In this document: positions 37,466 through 44,533 of the stretch, piece by piece
Layout: each line of letters starts with the position of its first letter
Position numbering within the stretch: the stretch's first letter is position 1
Assembly (NCBI GenBank): GCA_029240795.1
Contig: JARDZP010000002.1
Span: 1 to 64,000 of the forward strand
Reading direction: 5' to 3'
Length of the DNA stretch: 64,000 nucleotides
Source: Haloplasmataceae bacterium
GTDB lineage: Bacteria > Bacillota_I > Bacilli_A > Haloplasmatales > Haloplasmataceae
Position numbers and translations under genes: made by a program
Notes under the pieces: model-generated
Database searches by the model: none
Seen by the model: only the letters and a program-made list of their open reading frames with translations
Told to the model about the DNA's origin: nothing

Positions 37466-38509
37466 TTATTTTTTGTATTCTTTAAGAAATTTAACTGCTT
37501 CCGCGAATGTTTTAACTGGTACTATTTCAATATCTGAATTTTTTATTCTTTTTGCTTCTAATGCTAACATGTATAAATTATTGCCACTACTATCTTCGAT
37601 ATTTGGTGCGATATAAATATCCATATCATTTTTAATCGCGCCAAAAACTTTCTGTTTAATTCCGGCTATCGGTAAAACAGCACCATTTATATCGATCACA
37701 CCAGTACCGGCGATTTGTAAACCATGAGTAAGATCTTCATCGATTAATGCGTTATAAATACTTAACGTTTGCATTAAGCCAGCTGAAGAGCCATACCCTT
37801 CGGTATCACCCCAGTCAAATTTAGGATTACCAACAAAATTTGTATAATAACTATATAAATTAAGTCCTAATTTACAATTTGATTCATAAATTGTTTTATT
37901 TGTGGTAATGTCCATTATTTTATTATTCCTTAAAATGGTAAAGTTTATATCTATATTACATCCAATATTTACAGTTTTTAGTTGAAATTCAGCTTTATTC
38001 TTGATTGTTTCTCCATTTACAGCAGTAATGAGATCTCCTATTCGAAAATCATCAAAAGCATCAAACATGGGTGCTCGGTAAGAAATAATGACTCCAGATT
38101 CATCATAGGTAAGATCTTTACCTGCTTCTCTATATGCGACGATGATTGAGGTATGAATGGAATATAATTTATCAATCTCACTTGATTTATTTATTTCATC
38201 AACAGATAATTGAGAAACACTTTTACTTAATTTTTCAATATCGGCTCCTCGATTAAATTTAGCTAAAACAAATTGAAATGTAGATGGCTTTGTAATTACT
38301 GAAACATAACTGGAATAAAATGCACCACTTTGAGGATTGCTGTCTTCAATAGTAATAATACGATTTGCTTCTTCTACACCACCTGGAAGTAAGACTTCAT
38401 AAGGTGTTGGATAGACAAAAAACATTAACAACAAAACATAAGATATCGCAAAAATAATTATTTGTTTTAAAGTTAATTTTTTTAATGATTGAATCATTTT
38501 ACTAAACAA
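37466..38509 (-). CDS. PDZ-Lon membrane protease (SepM/YlbL-like)
   Basis: 347 residues: one membrane helix near the N-terminus (about 16-33), a PDZ domain (about 128-205, MFDAFDDFRIGDLITAVNGE) and a C-terminal Lon-type S16 protease domain with the Ser/Lys dyad: GYGSSAGLMQTL (Ser) and PIAGIKQKVFGA (Lys). All catalytic residues intact. In streptococci SepM trims a competence peptide; in Bacillus YlbL acts in DNA-damage response. Substrate here unknown. TTG start at 38509 with AAGGTGAT upstream; ATG at 38497 is the alternative. Operon with lspA and rluD likely. Confidence 0.92.
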   Translation of the reverse strand: MFSKMIQSLKKLTLKQIIIFAISYVLLLMFFVYPTPYEVLLPGGVEEANRIITIEDSNPQSGAFYSSYVSVITKPSTFQFVLAKFNRGADIEKLSKSVSQLSVDEINKSSEIDKLYSIHTSIIVAYREAGKDLTYDESGVIISYRAPMFDAFDDFRIGDLITAVNGETIKNKAEFQLKTVNIGCNIDINFTILRNNKIMDITTNKTIYESNCKLGLNLYSYYTNFVGNPKFDWGDTEGYGSSAGLMQTLSIYNALIDEDLTHGLQIAGTGVIDINGAVLPIAGIKQKVFGAIKNDMDIYIAPNIEDSSGNNLYMLALEAKRIKNSDIEIVPVKTFAEAVKFLKEYKK

Positions 38510-38513
38510 TTTA

Positions 38514-38984
38514 TCACCTTCTCGTTACATTTACATCGATTTGATTAAATAAACGATATTTAACACCACTAGAATTAAACATTCTTTTTGACGCAATTAT
38601 AGAATCTGTTTCTTTATATTTGTCTTCCATATAAACTACTTCTTTAATTCCACTTTGAATAATTAATTTAGCACATTCATTACATGGGAATAATGTGACA
38701 TACATGATGCAATCTTTAAGTGATGAATTACTATTTAATATCGCATTTGGTTCTGCATGAACAACATAAGGATATTTAGTATCAAGCCATTCACCTTCAC
38801 GATTCCAAGGGTATTCGGAATCAGCACAACCAATTGGTAAGCCATTATAACCTAATCCTACAATCCGTTTGTCTTGATTAACAATACAAGCTCCAACTTG
38901 TGTGTTTTCATCTTTACTTCTATTTGCTGATAAAACTGCGATTCCCATGAAATATTCATCCCAGGAAAGATAATCTTTACGCAT
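38514..38984 (-). CDS. comEB: dCMP deaminase
   Basis: Zinc deaminase (ComEB family), converts dCMP to dUMP, 156 residues. Zinc and catalytic motifs [11 protein letters not shown] (about 83-93, His and Glu) and [12 protein letters not shown] (about 111-122, two Cys). It lies before the PDZ-Lon protease with 4 bp spacing. The ComE pilus-competence context of the family may be accidental, but a pilus locus is also present in this window. Confidence 0.95.
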
Positions 38985-39534: not shown

Positions 39535-39882
39535 TTATGCTTTTACTTGTGCTTGTGGTTTAGCAATAGGTGCAGTATTAACTACTTGATCAGGATCTTC
39601 TCCTCTAAGGATAGCTAAAACTTTAGCACGTGTTAAATCATTAGCTGGTTTACATCCCTTAACATCAGCATCACCGGCGATTAAGCCATTTGCCATACCA
39701 GAACATCCAGCATAACCACACATACCACAGTTTACACCAGGTAAATTTTTAACTAATAAATCATAACGAGGGTCTTCTGTTACTTGGAATACATTACTTG
39801 CAAAGGCAAGAATTAATCCAATAACCGCTCCAATAGCACCTACAATACCAGCAACGATTAACCCGTTATTTAATATTTCCAT
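39535..39882 (-). CDS. rnfB: Minimal RnfB without ferredoxin domain
   Basis: 115 residues: one membrane helix (about 6-28) and the single [4Fe-4S] domain (LPGVNCGMCGYAGCSGMANG, then GCKPANDL; Cys-x2-Cys-x4-Cys-x16-Cys). Normal RnfB is more than twice as long because of a C-terminal domain with two or more ferredoxin-type [4Fe-4S] clusters; that is absent and the protein ends in a PKPQAQVKA tail. In the Rnf complex RnfB accepts electrons from ferredoxin. Start ATG 39882 after AAGGTGA; overlaps the small upstream gene by 17 bp. Confidence 0.88.
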   Translation of the reverse strand: MEILNNGLIVAGIVGAIGAVIGLILAFASNVFQVTEDPRYDLLVKNLPGVNCGMCGYAGCSGMANGLIAGDADVKGCKPANDLTRAKVLAILRGEDPDQVVNTAPIAKPQAQVKA

Positions 39883-40111
39883 TATTTTCACCTTCTCCAC
39901 TATTAGTTTTAATACTTTGTTTTATTTCATCTTTAATTTCTTGAACACGATTCGATTCAGAATAACCACATGAAACAGATACACAGTGTTCACATTTCAT
40001 TGATGGTAATTCACACCCAGCAGGTATAGGGGTTTTTTTATTAAGGTACATTCCAATTGCTAAAAACGCAAATAATCCAATCAATAATAAAATTACATAT
40101 AGTTGTTGCAT
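39866..40111 (-). CDS. NqrM-like small membrane protein in Rnf operon
   Basis: 81 residues: one membrane helix (about 4-22) and a cytoplasmic cysteine motif PIPAGCELPSMKCEHCVSVSC (Cys-x7-Cys-x2-Cys-x4-Cys; first residues of the stretch given only). This resembles the small membrane protein NqrM, known from Na+-NQR biogenesis, where it helps insert iron into the NqrD/NqrE pair. RnfA and RnfE are the homologues of that pair and are encoded directly upstream. I propose an NqrM-type iron-delivery role for the Rnf complex; this is inference. Overlaps rnfB by 17 bp. Confidence 0.6.
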   Translation of the reverse strand: MQQLYVILLLIGLFAFLAIGMYLNKKTPIPAGCELPSMKCEHCVSVSCGYSESNRVQEIKDEIKQSIKTNSGEGENNGNIK

Positions 40112-40112
40112 T

Positions 40113-40697
40113 TTAACCTAATAACCCAGCAAATCCCATAAATGCGATTGCCATGATTCCAGTCGTAATAAATGCAATTGGAGTACCTTTGAATGCTTCA
40201 GGAATATCAGAATTTTCAAGTCTTTCACGCATTGTGGAGAAAACATAAATAATAAGTGTATAGCCGATTGAAATACCTAAACTATAAACGATAACTTCTG
40301 GATATCCCCAATTTTTATTTTCTGGGGCAACAACTGTTAATGCTACACCTAACACTGCACAGTTAGTTGTTATAAGTGGTAAATAAATACCTAACATTTT
40401 ATATATAAGTGGTGCTGCTTTTTTAATAAACATTTCAACAAATTGAACTACTCCTGAAATAACTAAAATATAAACGATCGTACGCATATAAATTAAATCA
40501 TTTGGATATAAAATAAATTTATCAATAGTAAATGTTAAAAGAGATGAAGTTAAAATTACGAATATAACTGCTAACCCCATTCCGATGGCTGATTGACTCT
40601 TTTTAGAAACCCCAATATATGAACATATACCCAAAAATTGTGATAAAATAACATTTTGGATTAAAATAGACGAGATTCCCAATATAATTAAATTCAT
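40113..40697 (-). CDS. rnfA: Rnf complex membrane subunit RnfA
   Basis: 194 residues, six membrane helices. The signature segments QNVILSQFLGICSYIG (about 14-29) and LPLITTNCAVLGVAL (about 108-122) each carry the conserved Cys that together with RnfE hold an iron site in the middle of the membrane. Homologous to NqrE. Followed by the NqrM-like gene with no gap. Confidence 0.95.
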   Translation of the reverse strand: MNLIILGISSILIQNVILSQFLGICSYIGVSKKSQSAIGMGLAVIFVILTSSLLTFTIDKFILYPNDLIYMRTIVYILVISGVVQFVEMFIKKAAPLIYKMLGIYLPLITTNCAVLGVALTVVAPENKNWGYPEVIVYSLGISIGYTLIIYVFSTMRERLENSDIPEAFKGTPIAFITTGIMAIAFMGFAGLLG

Positions 40698-40711: not shown

Positions 40712-41329
40712 CTACTTATTTTCCACAGTTTTTTTATTACGTTTTGCTACAATCACATTAATTAAAGCTAATAAGAATCCTAACGTTATAAAAGCACCTG
40801 GTGCTAAAATAAAGATAGTAGCTGGTTCAAATAAATTAAATGGTATAATATTAAATCCAAGTAACTCACCTGAGCCAAGAATTTCTCTTATTGAAGCTAC
40901 TATTGCTATTGCTATAGTATATCCAAGACCCATACCTAATGCATCAATAGCAGAATCAACTACACCATTTTTACTTGCATATGCTTCTGCACGTCCTAAA
41001 ACAACACAGTTTACTACGATTAACGGAATAAAAATTCCTAATTCTTCATACAAGCTGAATGTAAATGCATTCATTACCATATCAACAATTGTAACTAAAG
41101 TTGCTATAACAACGATATACGCAGGAATACGAATATCATTTGGTATTAACTTACGAATTAAAGAGATTAAGATGTTTGATAAAATAAGAACTACAGTAAA
41201 AGCTGCCCCCATACCTAATGCATTTAACAATGAAGTTGTAACACCTAGTACCGGACACATCCCAAGTATTAAAACAAATACTGGGTTTTCCTGAAAAATA
41301 CCTTTTAATAGATTTTGTTTTTTTGTCAT
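40712..41329 (-). CDS. rnfE: Rnf complex membrane subunit RnfE
   Basis: 205 residues, six membrane helices, homologue of NqrD. Signature NPVFVLILGMCPVLGVT (about 15-31) and IPLIVVNCVVLGRAEAYA (about 100-117) with the two Cys that complete the membrane iron centre shared with RnfA. Follows rnfG by 14 bp. Confidence 0.95.
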   Translation of the reverse strand: MTKKQNLLKGIFQENPVFVLILGMCPVLGVTTSLLNALGMGAAFTVVLILSNILISLIRKLIPNDIRIPAYIVVIATLVTIVDMVMNAFTFSLYEELGIFIPLIVVNCVVLGRAEAYASKNGVVDSAIDALGMGLGYTIAIAIVASIREILGSGELLGFNIIPFNLFEPATIFILAPGAFITLGFLLALINVIVAKRNKKTVENK

Positions 41330-41343
41330 TTTCGTACTCCTCT

Positions 41344-41922
41344 CTACTTATTTTTTAAATTAGCATTAAAATAATCTAAAGCTGATTGAACACTATTCTT
41401 TACAGCAGTAGAACTAAATGTTGCTCCTGAAACTGAATCTATATCCTTATCAATTAATAACTTGGCAATATGACTTGTGTCTGTTATATTTAGAAAATAA
41501 TTTATAAAATCAGGTTCTTCAACTCTTGAACCAACTCCTGGTGTTTCTCCTAACGCTAAATAGGATAATCCAACTACTTTACCTTCAGTATTAATACCTA
41601 CTAATACAGTTAATTTCCCATTATAACTACCTGGAGCTAATACTTTTACAGCATATCCTAATAAATTACCAGCTGTATCTTTAATAATATAGTATTCTTT
41701 TAATTCTTCATAATCTTCATCAACAATACTTACTGTATTATTTGCATCATTTAAACTAAGTGGATCTATATTAGGGAAAATTTCTTTAATTCCTTTAGAT
41801 AGCTTTTCAGCATTAGCGGCCTTAATTGGTTCAGCAGTAAATTCATTTACAACTCCTAAGATAAGTCCACTAAATGCTGAAATAATAAATAGTATTAATA
41901 CTAATTGTATATATTTTTTCAT
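41344..41922 (-). CDS. rnfG: Rnf complex flavoprotein subunit RnfG
   Basis: 192 residues: N-terminal membrane helix (about 5-25) and an FMN-binding domain outside the membrane. The flavinylation motif DSVSGATFSST (about 165-175) has the Thr to which ApbE attaches FMN. LGETPGVGSRVEE-type segment conserved. Overlaps rnfD by one base. No apbE gene in the window. Confidence 0.95.
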   Translation of the reverse strand: MKKYIQLVLILFIISAFSGLILGVVNEFTAEPIKAANAEKLSKGIKEIFPNIDPLSLNDANNTVSIVDEDYEELKEYYIIKDTAGNLLGYAVKVLAPGSYNGKLTVLVGINTEGKVVGLSYLALGETPGVGSRVEEPDFINYFLNITDTSHIAKLLIDKDIDSVSGATFSSTAVKNSVQSALDYFNANLKNK

Positions 41923-43100
41923 TAGAATGAACCTCCTAATCTAAAACCTGCATAAATTGTTATTATTACGATTAATGCCACTGTAACGATCCAAAATACT
42001 ATTTCTTTTACAGAAGTTCCTTTACGTTGTCCCATAAACGCATTATCGATTAATGGAGAGAACATATTCATTAATAATATTGCATACATAACGCCTTCAG
42101 GTGCATTTCCTAACATACGGATAGCAAATGTAATGATAGCAGCGTATACAGCAAATACTGCACGACCGCGATTTGTAATGGGTGAAGTAACTGGTTCAGT
42201 TGCCATAAATACGGCACCAAATAATAATCCACCAGATAACACTTGGAATAATGGAAAATAAATTGCGAGTGTTCCTAATCCATCACCTGTACTTAATCCA
42301 GTCATTAGAGCAACAGCCCAAGACATAACAAATACTAAACCTACATAAATAACTGGAACAAACCAGTTGATTGTTTTCTTAATTGATAAATAGATGAATG
42401 CTCCTATAATCCAGAATGATAAACTTTCACCTAATGCACTAGGATATAATCCTAAAAATAACTTCCAAAAAGATCCATAAATTGCTTTAAATGAAGAATA
42501 TGATAATAAACCTTCATTAAGAGATCCTAAAGGTGAAGCTGAAGCAATAGCATCTGTTGAACTTCCAAAGATATTTGGAAATACTTCAGTATAATTAACT
42601 GCTCCACCTATCAATGAAGCGAAAGCAATTGTAATAAATGCACGACCGACTAAAGCCGGGTTGAAAATATTTTGCCCAACACCACCAAAAATTGTTTTAC
42701 CAACTATTGTTGCTACGAAACCACCGATAAGTACTACGTAAAGTGGTGTTCCGATTGGTAAAGCTAAGGCATATAACATACCTGTAATTGAAGGGTATGT
42801 GGTAGCCATTATTCTAAACCAACCTGCGAAATCATTATATTTTTTACCTACAAAATACCACCAAATTGACTCAGCGGCAATACACGAGAAAACTCCCGTA
42901 AATAACACTAAAGCTGCTCTTAATGCAACGATTAAACCATCAGCAAAAGAAGCTCCTAATATTGTTGTTGCGAAAATGAATTGAATTAATACTGCAACTA
43001 CAGCCATAGGGTATGTTGTAATTGGTAAGTCAAACATATACTTATGAGCTGAATTGCCACTATGTATATGTGGATGTGAATCTACTTGTATTTTTGCCAT
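41922..43100 (-). CDS. rnfD: Rnf complex membrane flavoprotein RnfD
   Basis: 392 residues, about ten membrane helices, homologue of NqrB. The conserved GQNIFNPALVGRAF (about 145-158) and GPVTSPITNRGR-like EPVTSPITNRGRAVF (about 310) are present. At the covalent-FMN site, normally D-x-x-S-S/G-A-T-P-L, this protein reads DAIASASPLG (about 187-196), so the acceptor Thr is Ser. Fourth gene after rnfC in the leftward operon. Confidence 0.94.
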   Translation of the reverse strand: MAKIQVDSHPHIHSGNSAHKYMFDLPITTYPMAVVAVLIQFIFATTILGASFADGLIVALRAALVLFTGVFSCIAAESIWWYFVGKKYNDFAGWFRIMATTYPSITGMLYALALPIGTPLYVVLIGGFVATIVGKTIFGGVGQNIFNPALVGRAFITIAFASLIGGAVNYTEVFPNIFGSSTDAIASASPLGSLNEGLLSYSSFKAIYGSFWKLFLGLYPSALGESLSFWIIGAFIYLSIKKTINWFVPVIYVGLVFVMSWAVALMTGLSTGDGLGTLAIYFPLFQVLSGGLLFGAVFMATEPVTSPITNRGRAVFAVYAAIITFAIRMLGNAPEGVMYAILLMNMFSPLIDNAFMGQRKGTSVKEIVFWIVTVALIVIITIYAGFRLGGSF

Positions 43101-43123: not shown

Positions 43124-44533
43124 TTACTTTTTAATTTTGTTTTTATTTCTAACTAAGAAATATGCTTTACCCTTTTTAATAGCATCATTAACACTGATGT
43201 GTGAAGGACAAACATATGCACATGTACCACAATTGATACATTCTGTAACATCTAATTTAACTAACAATTCTTCATTTTTATTTAATGAAGCGAATCTTAA
43301 TAATGTAGGTTGTAATCCTGCAGGACAATGTCTAACGCAATTACCACAACGTACACAAGCTTGCTCATCTTTTTCAAAATGGAAATGATCATGTTCAGTA
43401 AAATGTAAAACGTTTAATAATACTTCTCCTACTGGTTGACCATGAGGAATTTGATATGTATGGAATCCAGGTAATACAACAATTCCATTTAATGCGCGTG
43501 TAATCACAAATTCTTCTTGTTTTTGTGCAACACCTGTCATTGGTCCACCAGCGATTATGCGTAAGTCACCTAAGTCTGTAGCTAAACCACCTGATAATTT
43601 AATTAAATCAGTTGATAATGTACCAATTCTCACTAAGTAATTTTTAGGATGTAGAATACCTTCACCTGTTACAGTTAGAATACGATCGATCACTGGTCTT
43701 CCATCACGAACTGCTTTTGAAACTGCTACTGCGGTACTAACGTTATTTACAATAACACCACATTCATTAGGATATTGTTTATATGAACGTTTTAATGTTC
43801 TATATACAACTTGTCTTTCCCATCCAGCAGGATATTCGTCAGGTAATTCTATAACTTTAATGTTTTCATGTTTGCTTGTTGCTTCTACTAATTTTGTAAA
43901 TACTTCTTTTTTACCCTTTTTAATAACGATAATACCATTATTAGCACTAGCAGCTTTCATCATGATCACAAGCCCATCAACTACACGGTCTGTTTCTTCT
44001 AACATAACACGGTAATCAGATGTAACATAGGGTTCACATTCAGCACCATTTAAAATAACAGTATCGATATCTGCTTTATCTTTATATTTCAAATATGTTG
44101 GAAAACCAGCCCCACCAAGTCCTACAACTCCTGATTCAGACATGATATCCCATAATTTGGTATTATCTAATGTGTCTAAATTCTCAACTGGTTTACATTC
44201 ATCTGATAAAGTATCTAAGAAGTCGTTTTTAATTTTAATACATACAAAAGGCAAACCTGTTCTATGTGTTTTCTTATCTGTAATACTAACTACTTCTCCA
44301 CTAACTGTAGCATGTTTAACAATTGGTAATCCTTTTGCTTCAACACGTCTAGCAATTTTTTGACCTAATTTAACTTTATCTCCGGGTTTTACATATATTT
44401 CGAAGTCAGAACCTTTGATAGAAAGAGGTATAAAAACAAAATCAGGTGTTACAAATTTTTCTGAATGTAACACTGATGTATCATTTTTATGACCAGGTAT
44501 ATGTAAACCTTTATTAGCCTTAAATAGCTTCAT
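43124..44533 (-). CDS. rnfC: Rnf complex NADH-binding iron-sulfur subunit RnfC
   Basis: 469 residues: N-terminal barrel-sandwich (VKPGDKVKLGQKIAR, about 50), a Rossmann-type NADH/FMN fold (GVVGLGGAGFPTYLKY, about 134; LNGAECEPYVT, about 161), SLBB, and two ferredoxin-type clusters near the C-terminus: CVRCGNCVRHCPAGLQP (about 388) and CINCGTCAYVCPSH (about 428). All eight Cys are present. First gene of the operon, with its own promoter. The complex moves Na+ or H+ while passing electrons between ferredoxin and NAD+. Confidence 0.96.
   Translation of the reverse strand: MKLFKANKGLHIPGHKNDTSVLHSEKFVTPDFVFIPLSIKGSDFEIYVKPGDKVKLGQKIARRVEAKGLPIVKHATVSGEVVSITDKKTHRTGLPFVCIKIKNDFLDTLSDECKPVENLDTLDNTKLWDIMSESGVVGLGGAGFPTYLKYKDKADIDTVILNGAECEPYVTSDYRVMLEETDRVVDGLVIMMKAASANNGIIVIKKGKKEVFTKLVEATSKHENIKVIELPDEYPAGWERQVVYRTLKRSYKQYPNECGVIVNNVSTAVAVSKAVRDGRPVIDRILTVTGEGILHPKNYLVRIGTLSTDLIKLSGGLATDLGDLRIIAGGPMTGVAQKQEEFVITRALNGIVVLPGFHTYQIPHGQPVGEVLLNVLHFTEHDHFHFEKDEQACVRCGNCVRHCPAGLQPTLLRFASLNKNEELLVKLDVTECINCGTCAYVCPSHISVNDAIKKGKAYFLVRNKNKIKK

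Follow-up and report, generated by a model that had tools for sequence, protein, structure and literature searches.

The Rnf complex, a main energy converter of anaerobes, probably has in class Bacilli a near-obligate seventh component, a membrane metalloprotein that either matures, or is part of, a pump with a one-cluster RnfB, and that would be the first dedicated Fe-S assembly or accessory factor for Rnf. The candidate is an 81-aa protein encoded between rnfA and rnfB, provisionally named Sml here, which was found in all 90 genomes counted as carrying a short-RnfB Rnf and in one of the 205 other genomes of the class sample. The favored reading, to which a probability of roughly 55% is assigned, is that Sml is a membrane-anchored factor dedicated to the Rnf of class Bacilli that delivers iron or a cluster and is NqrM-like in its working. 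Sml is a single concrete gene whose presence and absence across the class follow those of one Rnf lineage. Should it prove to be a maturation factor, producing Bacilli-type Rnf in a foreign host will depend on it; a subunit role could account for electron uptake by a pump with a one-cluster RnfB.

Sml represents a new, unnamed family of recognizable kind, and annotation overlooks it because it has no Pfam or NCBIfam name. A literature search, with subscription papers mostly outside its reach, returned no description of a Sml-like gene, and the accessible part of a 2025 review mentions NqrM as serving NQR and ApbE as serving flavins, and lists no iron factor that serves Rnf (PMC12174285).

The Sml gene and its operon

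In the window, the whole stretch of 64,000 nucleotides from a Haloplasmataceae bacterium that was analyzed, Pfam and NCBIfam family matches give the operon order rnfC-D-G-E-A-Sml-B (Table 1). The listed open reading frame of Sml starts one base past the rnfA stop and overlaps rnfB at its 3' end; the rnfB start is the GTG as listed, an ATG at 39882 being possible too. Sml is not a chance reading frame, because a homologue of 62% identity is encoded at the corresponding point of the rnf operon in a Haloplasmataceae genome, and orthologues lie between rnfA and rnfB in about 90 Rnf operons from some 20 families of the class. The preliminary description was right about a small membrane protein at this place, and the gene does recur, as it had suggested checking, in other Rnf operons of the class.

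Table 1. Features of the rnf region in the window
Feature	Position	Strand	Evidence and remarks
PDZ/Lon-type membrane protease-like gene	37466..38509	-	next in conserved order; named from sequence motifs
dCMP-deaminase-like gene	38514..38984	-	downstream of rnfB; named from sequence motifs
rnfB, short form	39535..39900	-	helix + single [4Fe-4S] FeS module; ferredoxin domains absent; Pfam FeS 5.7e-11
Sml	39866..40111	-	81-codon ORF; single-helix protein; predicted second helix 52-71
Sml codons Cys33 to Cys48	39968..40015	-	candidate motif for metal binding; final three Cys invariant among 29 aligned members
rnfA	40113..40697	-	TIGR01943 241 bits, above cut-off; C25, C113
rnfE	40712..41329	-	TIGR01948 262 bits, above cut-off; C25, C108
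rnfG	41344..41922	-	TIGR01947 112 bits, above cut-off
rnfD	41922..43100	-	PF03116 2.9e-74
rnfC	43124..44533	-	TIGR01945 351 bits, above cut-off

The protein begins with a hydrophobic helix (best 19-residue Kyte-Doolittle mean 2.5), followed by KK and then by the cysteine cluster, and its cysteine tail is probably cytoplasmic because basic residues come after the helix. In the AlphaFold model the helix at 2-26 is confident and a further one spans 52-71 (mean pLDDT 75.5; pTM 0.40 for Sml alone), two helices that offer nothing suited to a fold search. The NqrM-like plan proposed earlier, one helix and a short cysteine cluster, agrees with this model, and the four-cysteine cluster itself stands, with its first spacing corrected from x7 to x6 (C33-x6-C40-x2-C43-x4-C48). 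Among 29 aligned members, P30, C40, C43 and C48 are invariant and Cys33 is variable. The C-x2-C-x4-C spacing is kept in 80 of 99 members, the other 19 having a different one, and an upstream cysteine (up to 16 residues before) occurs in 76 and is absent from 23. The family further has a conserved linker, (N/H)KKTPxPxGC, and in family f10 it is reduced to minimal forms of 35-37 aa, such as MIGFVIVLLLFILTFILYRVNKTKEKCKGCDLCQL.

Its neighbor RnfB in the window matches RnfB entries of the PDB over the N-terminal ~100 residues only, and no trace of another RnfB FeS domain was found downstream of rnfB. This short form is general, as nearly all Rnf of class Bacilli have an RnfB of 89-192 aa made of a helix and one FeS module and devoid of ferredoxin-domain (Fer4) motifs; two FeS modules occur in some Haloplasmataceae (G001, G004, G005 and G006), and one in the window. 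In Clostridia and Fusobacterium, RnfB has 263-429 aa, and rnfB directly follows rnfA with no Sml in the operon. The sole clostridial-type Rnf with a long RnfB in the class sample, that of G078, is likewise found in a genome from which Sml is absent.

The presumptive client site lies in RnfA and RnfE, for which the preliminary description had claimed two conserved cysteines each. This holds, as those of the window (C25/C113 in RnfA, C25/C108 in RnfE) have the same numbers as the [2Fe-2S] ligands of the Acetobacterium woodii Rnf (PMC11889175). All four are present in 92 of 92 scored operons with Sml; they are also present in all scored Sml-less Rnf and NQR operons, bar three divergent pairs, so that these cysteines do not by themselves require Sml. 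No Sml was detected in the genomes of the three cluster-less pairs. At L234, L235 and L244, the cluster-less RnfA/RnfE-like pairs adjoin apparent multi-domain FMN-binding and ApbE-like proteins, and they are perhaps a cluster-less flavin electron-transfer system.

Co-occurrence of Sml with Rnf in class Bacilli

The class sample comprised 295 Bacilli genomes, with PF02508 in 100 and the Sml profile at E<=1e-5 in 87. Ten of the PF02508 genomes were excluded as not having a short-RnfB Rnf, leaving the 90 counted. These were genomes with NQR, to which the Pfam family is common with Rnf (G048, G072, G088, G263 and G276 by inspection, G095 by shared genus), genomes with divergent or isolated matches (cluster-less RnfA/RnfE-like pairs in G196 and G220; in G096, a single weak match adjoining an RnfD-like gene), and G078 with its clostridial-type operon and long RnfB. 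Automatic parsing recovered RnfB in 87 of the 90 genomes, and inspection by eye did so in the remaining three (104-107 aa). Sml was recognized by profile in 86 and as a positional orthologue missed by the profile in four (G016, G038, G065 and G261).

The association has a Fisher probability of 2e-68, based on profile calls and ignoring the kinship of genomes. Phylogenetically more telling than this class-wide figure is the concordance within families in a set of 100 relatives: f2, f5, f7, f9, f10, f11, f16 and f19 contain members with both Sml and Rnf and members with neither, and no discordant ones. Among these 100 relatives, Sml was found in 54 of 55 Rnf genomes, the lone miss being a 55%-complete genome, versus none of 45 without Rnf, where absence was called from a single-sequence search and, if a genome belonged to the class sample too, from the profile. 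The single-sequence search matched 42 of the 100 relatives, and most of the fetched loci lay exactly between rnfA and rnfB. A small protein dedicated to Rnf, as originally suggested, is thus borne out by a co-occurrence far beyond chance. The suggestion was to be given up if both a profile match to NqrM and co-occurrence with rnf were lacking; the former is indeed lacking and the latter is strong. The one exception in the class sample, G242 (96% complete), has Sml and no detected Rnf; its Sml gene (L091:4151-4387) lies downstream of that for a 1020-aa protein resembling a signaling (EAL-type) protein. No Sml homologue was found in a search of a plasmid collection.

The linkage to the operon is looser than that to the genome. 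Many short-RnfB operons are without a Sml of their own, and in several genomes rnfA and rnfB are adjacent and Sml is encoded elsewhere. Apart from rnf, Sml is found beside dCMP-deaminase-like and PDZ/Lon-protease-like genes in G009, G011, G021, G031, G062 and G093, and in other settings for a second copy in G021 and a copy in G097. As the same pair of genes follows rnfB in the window, one reading is that rnf perhaps moved away and Sml stayed. Copy numbers of Rnf and of clear Sml genes also differ, with three versus two in G018 and G075 and two versus one in G040. A second Sml copy of G001 lies downstream of rnfB (L108:3148-3348).

The NQR operons of class Bacilli contain no Sml, and in NQR-only Bacilli genomes neither Sml nor NqrM was detected. 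More generally, NqrM was not found in the 22 Bacilli genomes searched, which included the NQR-only ones, and a search beyond nqrF in six Bacilli NQR operons revealed no gene for a small cysteine-containing membrane protein. NQR operons of the class, with nqrF after nqrE, were observed at L092, L098, L100, L118, L122, L129 and L136, and NqrM was undetectable in the genomes tested.

Family identity of Sml

Scans against Pfam and NCBIfam gave nothing above cut-off for the window Sml and no consistent family for 29 relatives. The membership in NqrM/DUF539 for which a check was initially suggested is not supported. The corresponding profile, PF04400 (cut-off 22 bits), had no match to the window Sml at E<=1 and none to further relatives at E<=10, was absent among the matches listed (25 families) for 29 Sml members, and had no match in the whole genome. 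In a positive control, it gave 78.7 bits with the NqrM of Enterobacter; its sensitivity is limited, as it also missed a 53-aa protein encoded where NqrM would be expected in a Shinella nqr operon. The latter, NqrM-like and encoded after apbE (L219:10456-10617), has the motif GCEGL...CDGC. The NqrM of Vibrio harveyi, studied by Kostyrko et al. in 2016, reportedly has four conserved cysteines of which the first is essential. In Sml three are invariant among the 29 aligned members and the equivalent of the first is not conserved, and the genomic context differs as well, being rnf rather than an nqr operon with apbE.

The best Pfam hint for the window Sml is FeoB_associated (PF12669), at 16.8 bits and thus below its cut-off of 27 bits; in 12 of the 29 members it appears at E<=1, with a best E of 0.0018. 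The neighbors of Sml are rnf, or the deaminase and protease-like genes, and not feoB. PF04060, the RnfB FeS module, had no match to the window Sml, and a PDB sequence search with the Sml profile gave chance-level matches only. In hhalign comparisons of Sml with NqrM, FeoB-associated proteins and the RnfB N-terminus, all three scored similarly, the last highest, and all look related to Sml because all consist of a helix and CxxC. The profile-profile score of Sml with NqrM exceeded 99 of 100 shuffled-tail controls, and single-sequence decoys reached similar scores. Since these controls do not single out NqrM, no homology to it is claimed.

That Sml nevertheless descends from a true but very diverged NqrM, kept by or moved to Rnf, appears unlikely. 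Such a descent would account for the shared plan of helix, basic residues, (G)C(E/G)xL and then the cysteine cluster, for the resemblance to the Shinella protein, itself missed by PF04400, and for the margin over the shuffled tails; however, the FeoB-associated and RnfB N-terminal profiles score at least as well, decoys are similar, and the first cysteine is not conserved. As this descent is compatible with a delivery role, the probabilities of the readings are not exclusive shares.

Proposed role and comparison with known systems

In the favored reading of Sml as a delivery factor, the protein would be anchored by its one helix with the cysteine cluster on the cytoplasmic side, would most likely bind iron or a labile Fe-S cluster via C-x2-C-x4-C, joined by a fourth cysteine in roughly three of four members, and would hand the iron or cluster over during Rnf assembly. 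The intramembrane [2Fe-2S] site in RnfA/RnfE would be the likeliest client; alternatively, the factor could serve the [4Fe-4S] module of the short RnfB. Insertion of the NQR cluster by NqrM provides a precedent (PMC12174285). The co-occurrence with Rnf, the FeoB-associated profile hints, the invariable presence of the client cysteines in Sml operons and the lack of detected Sml in the genomes with the three cluster-less pairs are also counted in its favor. Maturation is preferred over a role as a subunit because Sml can lie away from rnf, its copy number is decoupled and its cysteine set is loose; this looseness, together with the minimal forms, is easier to reconcile with a delivery site than with a redox cluster held permanently. 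Against maturation, Sml tracks the short-RnfB lineage rather than the RnfA/RnfE cysteines, and clusters of this type can form without such a factor, given that Clostridia and Fusobacterium Rnf and Bacilli NQR have the cysteines without Sml and NQR-only genomes are without NqrM. The presence of Sml in G242 without detected Rnf and the fact that homology to NqrM is not demonstrable are likewise counted against it.

It is this tie to the short RnfB, with Sml missing from the long-RnfB operons of G078, Clostridia and Fusobacterium, that speaks for the main alternative, Sml as a small permanent subunit of Bacilli-type Rnf. It would offset the missing ferredoxin domains either by carrying a cluster on the route by which electrons enter, or as a docking site for ferredoxin or for the mobile RnfB module. 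The C-x2-C-x4-C spacing is that of the RnfB FeS module, whose N-terminal region gave the top profile-profile score of the three, and an extra Rnf subunit, RnfH, is found in Azotobacter vinelandii (PMC12174285). Yet many short-RnfB operons lack their own Sml, Rnf copies outnumber those of Sml in some genomes, and the fourth ligand is not conserved; moreover, the Rnf of Thermotoga maritima, with a 10.56-kDa RnfB and an operon reported as rnfCDGEAB, was active in purified form, and its description mentions no additional gene (PMC7414866; for the short RnfB and operon also PMC9588780), so a short RnfB alone does not seem to demand Sml. A subunit role is considered rather unlikely. Quite improbable is that Sml is a general membrane iron handler of the FeoB-associated type, linked to rnf and serving Rnf and other clients. 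The FeoB_associated hint, and a weak match of the Sml profile to a protein beside a FeoB-like gene in G232, would fit such a role, but the hint stays below cut-off throughout, Sml is missing from nearly all Rnf-less genomes of the class, which need iron too, and several Rnf genomes carry separate FeoB_associated proteins above cut-off.

Among known systems, NqrM resembles Sml in being small, with an N-terminal helix, basic residues after it and a cysteine cluster, and in being encoded with a pump, whose NqrD/NqrE are homologous to the RnfE/RnfA of the Sml pump. The NqrM gene, however, follows nqrF/apbE and that of Sml lies between rnfA and rnfB, and, unlike NqrM, Sml has C-x2-C-x4-C as its invariant cysteines, often no first cysteine, and Rnf rather than NQR as its partner. 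FeoB-associated cysteine-rich proteins, which are linked to iron (PMC8749426) and common in Firmicutes, share the short helix and the CxxC-type cluster; they go with feoB, whereas Sml goes with rnf, scores below their cut-off and has its own linker. The RnfB N-terminal region (PF04060), encoded by the adjoining gene, likewise combines an N-terminal helix with identical cysteine spacing, but Sml is without its LPGxNCGxCGxPGC context and distal fourth cysteine. RnfH of the A. vinelandii Rnf1 is, like Sml, an accessory protein confined to a single Rnf lineage; RnfH is cytoplasmic and without a cofactor (PMC12174285), whereas Sml is a cysteine-containing membrane protein.
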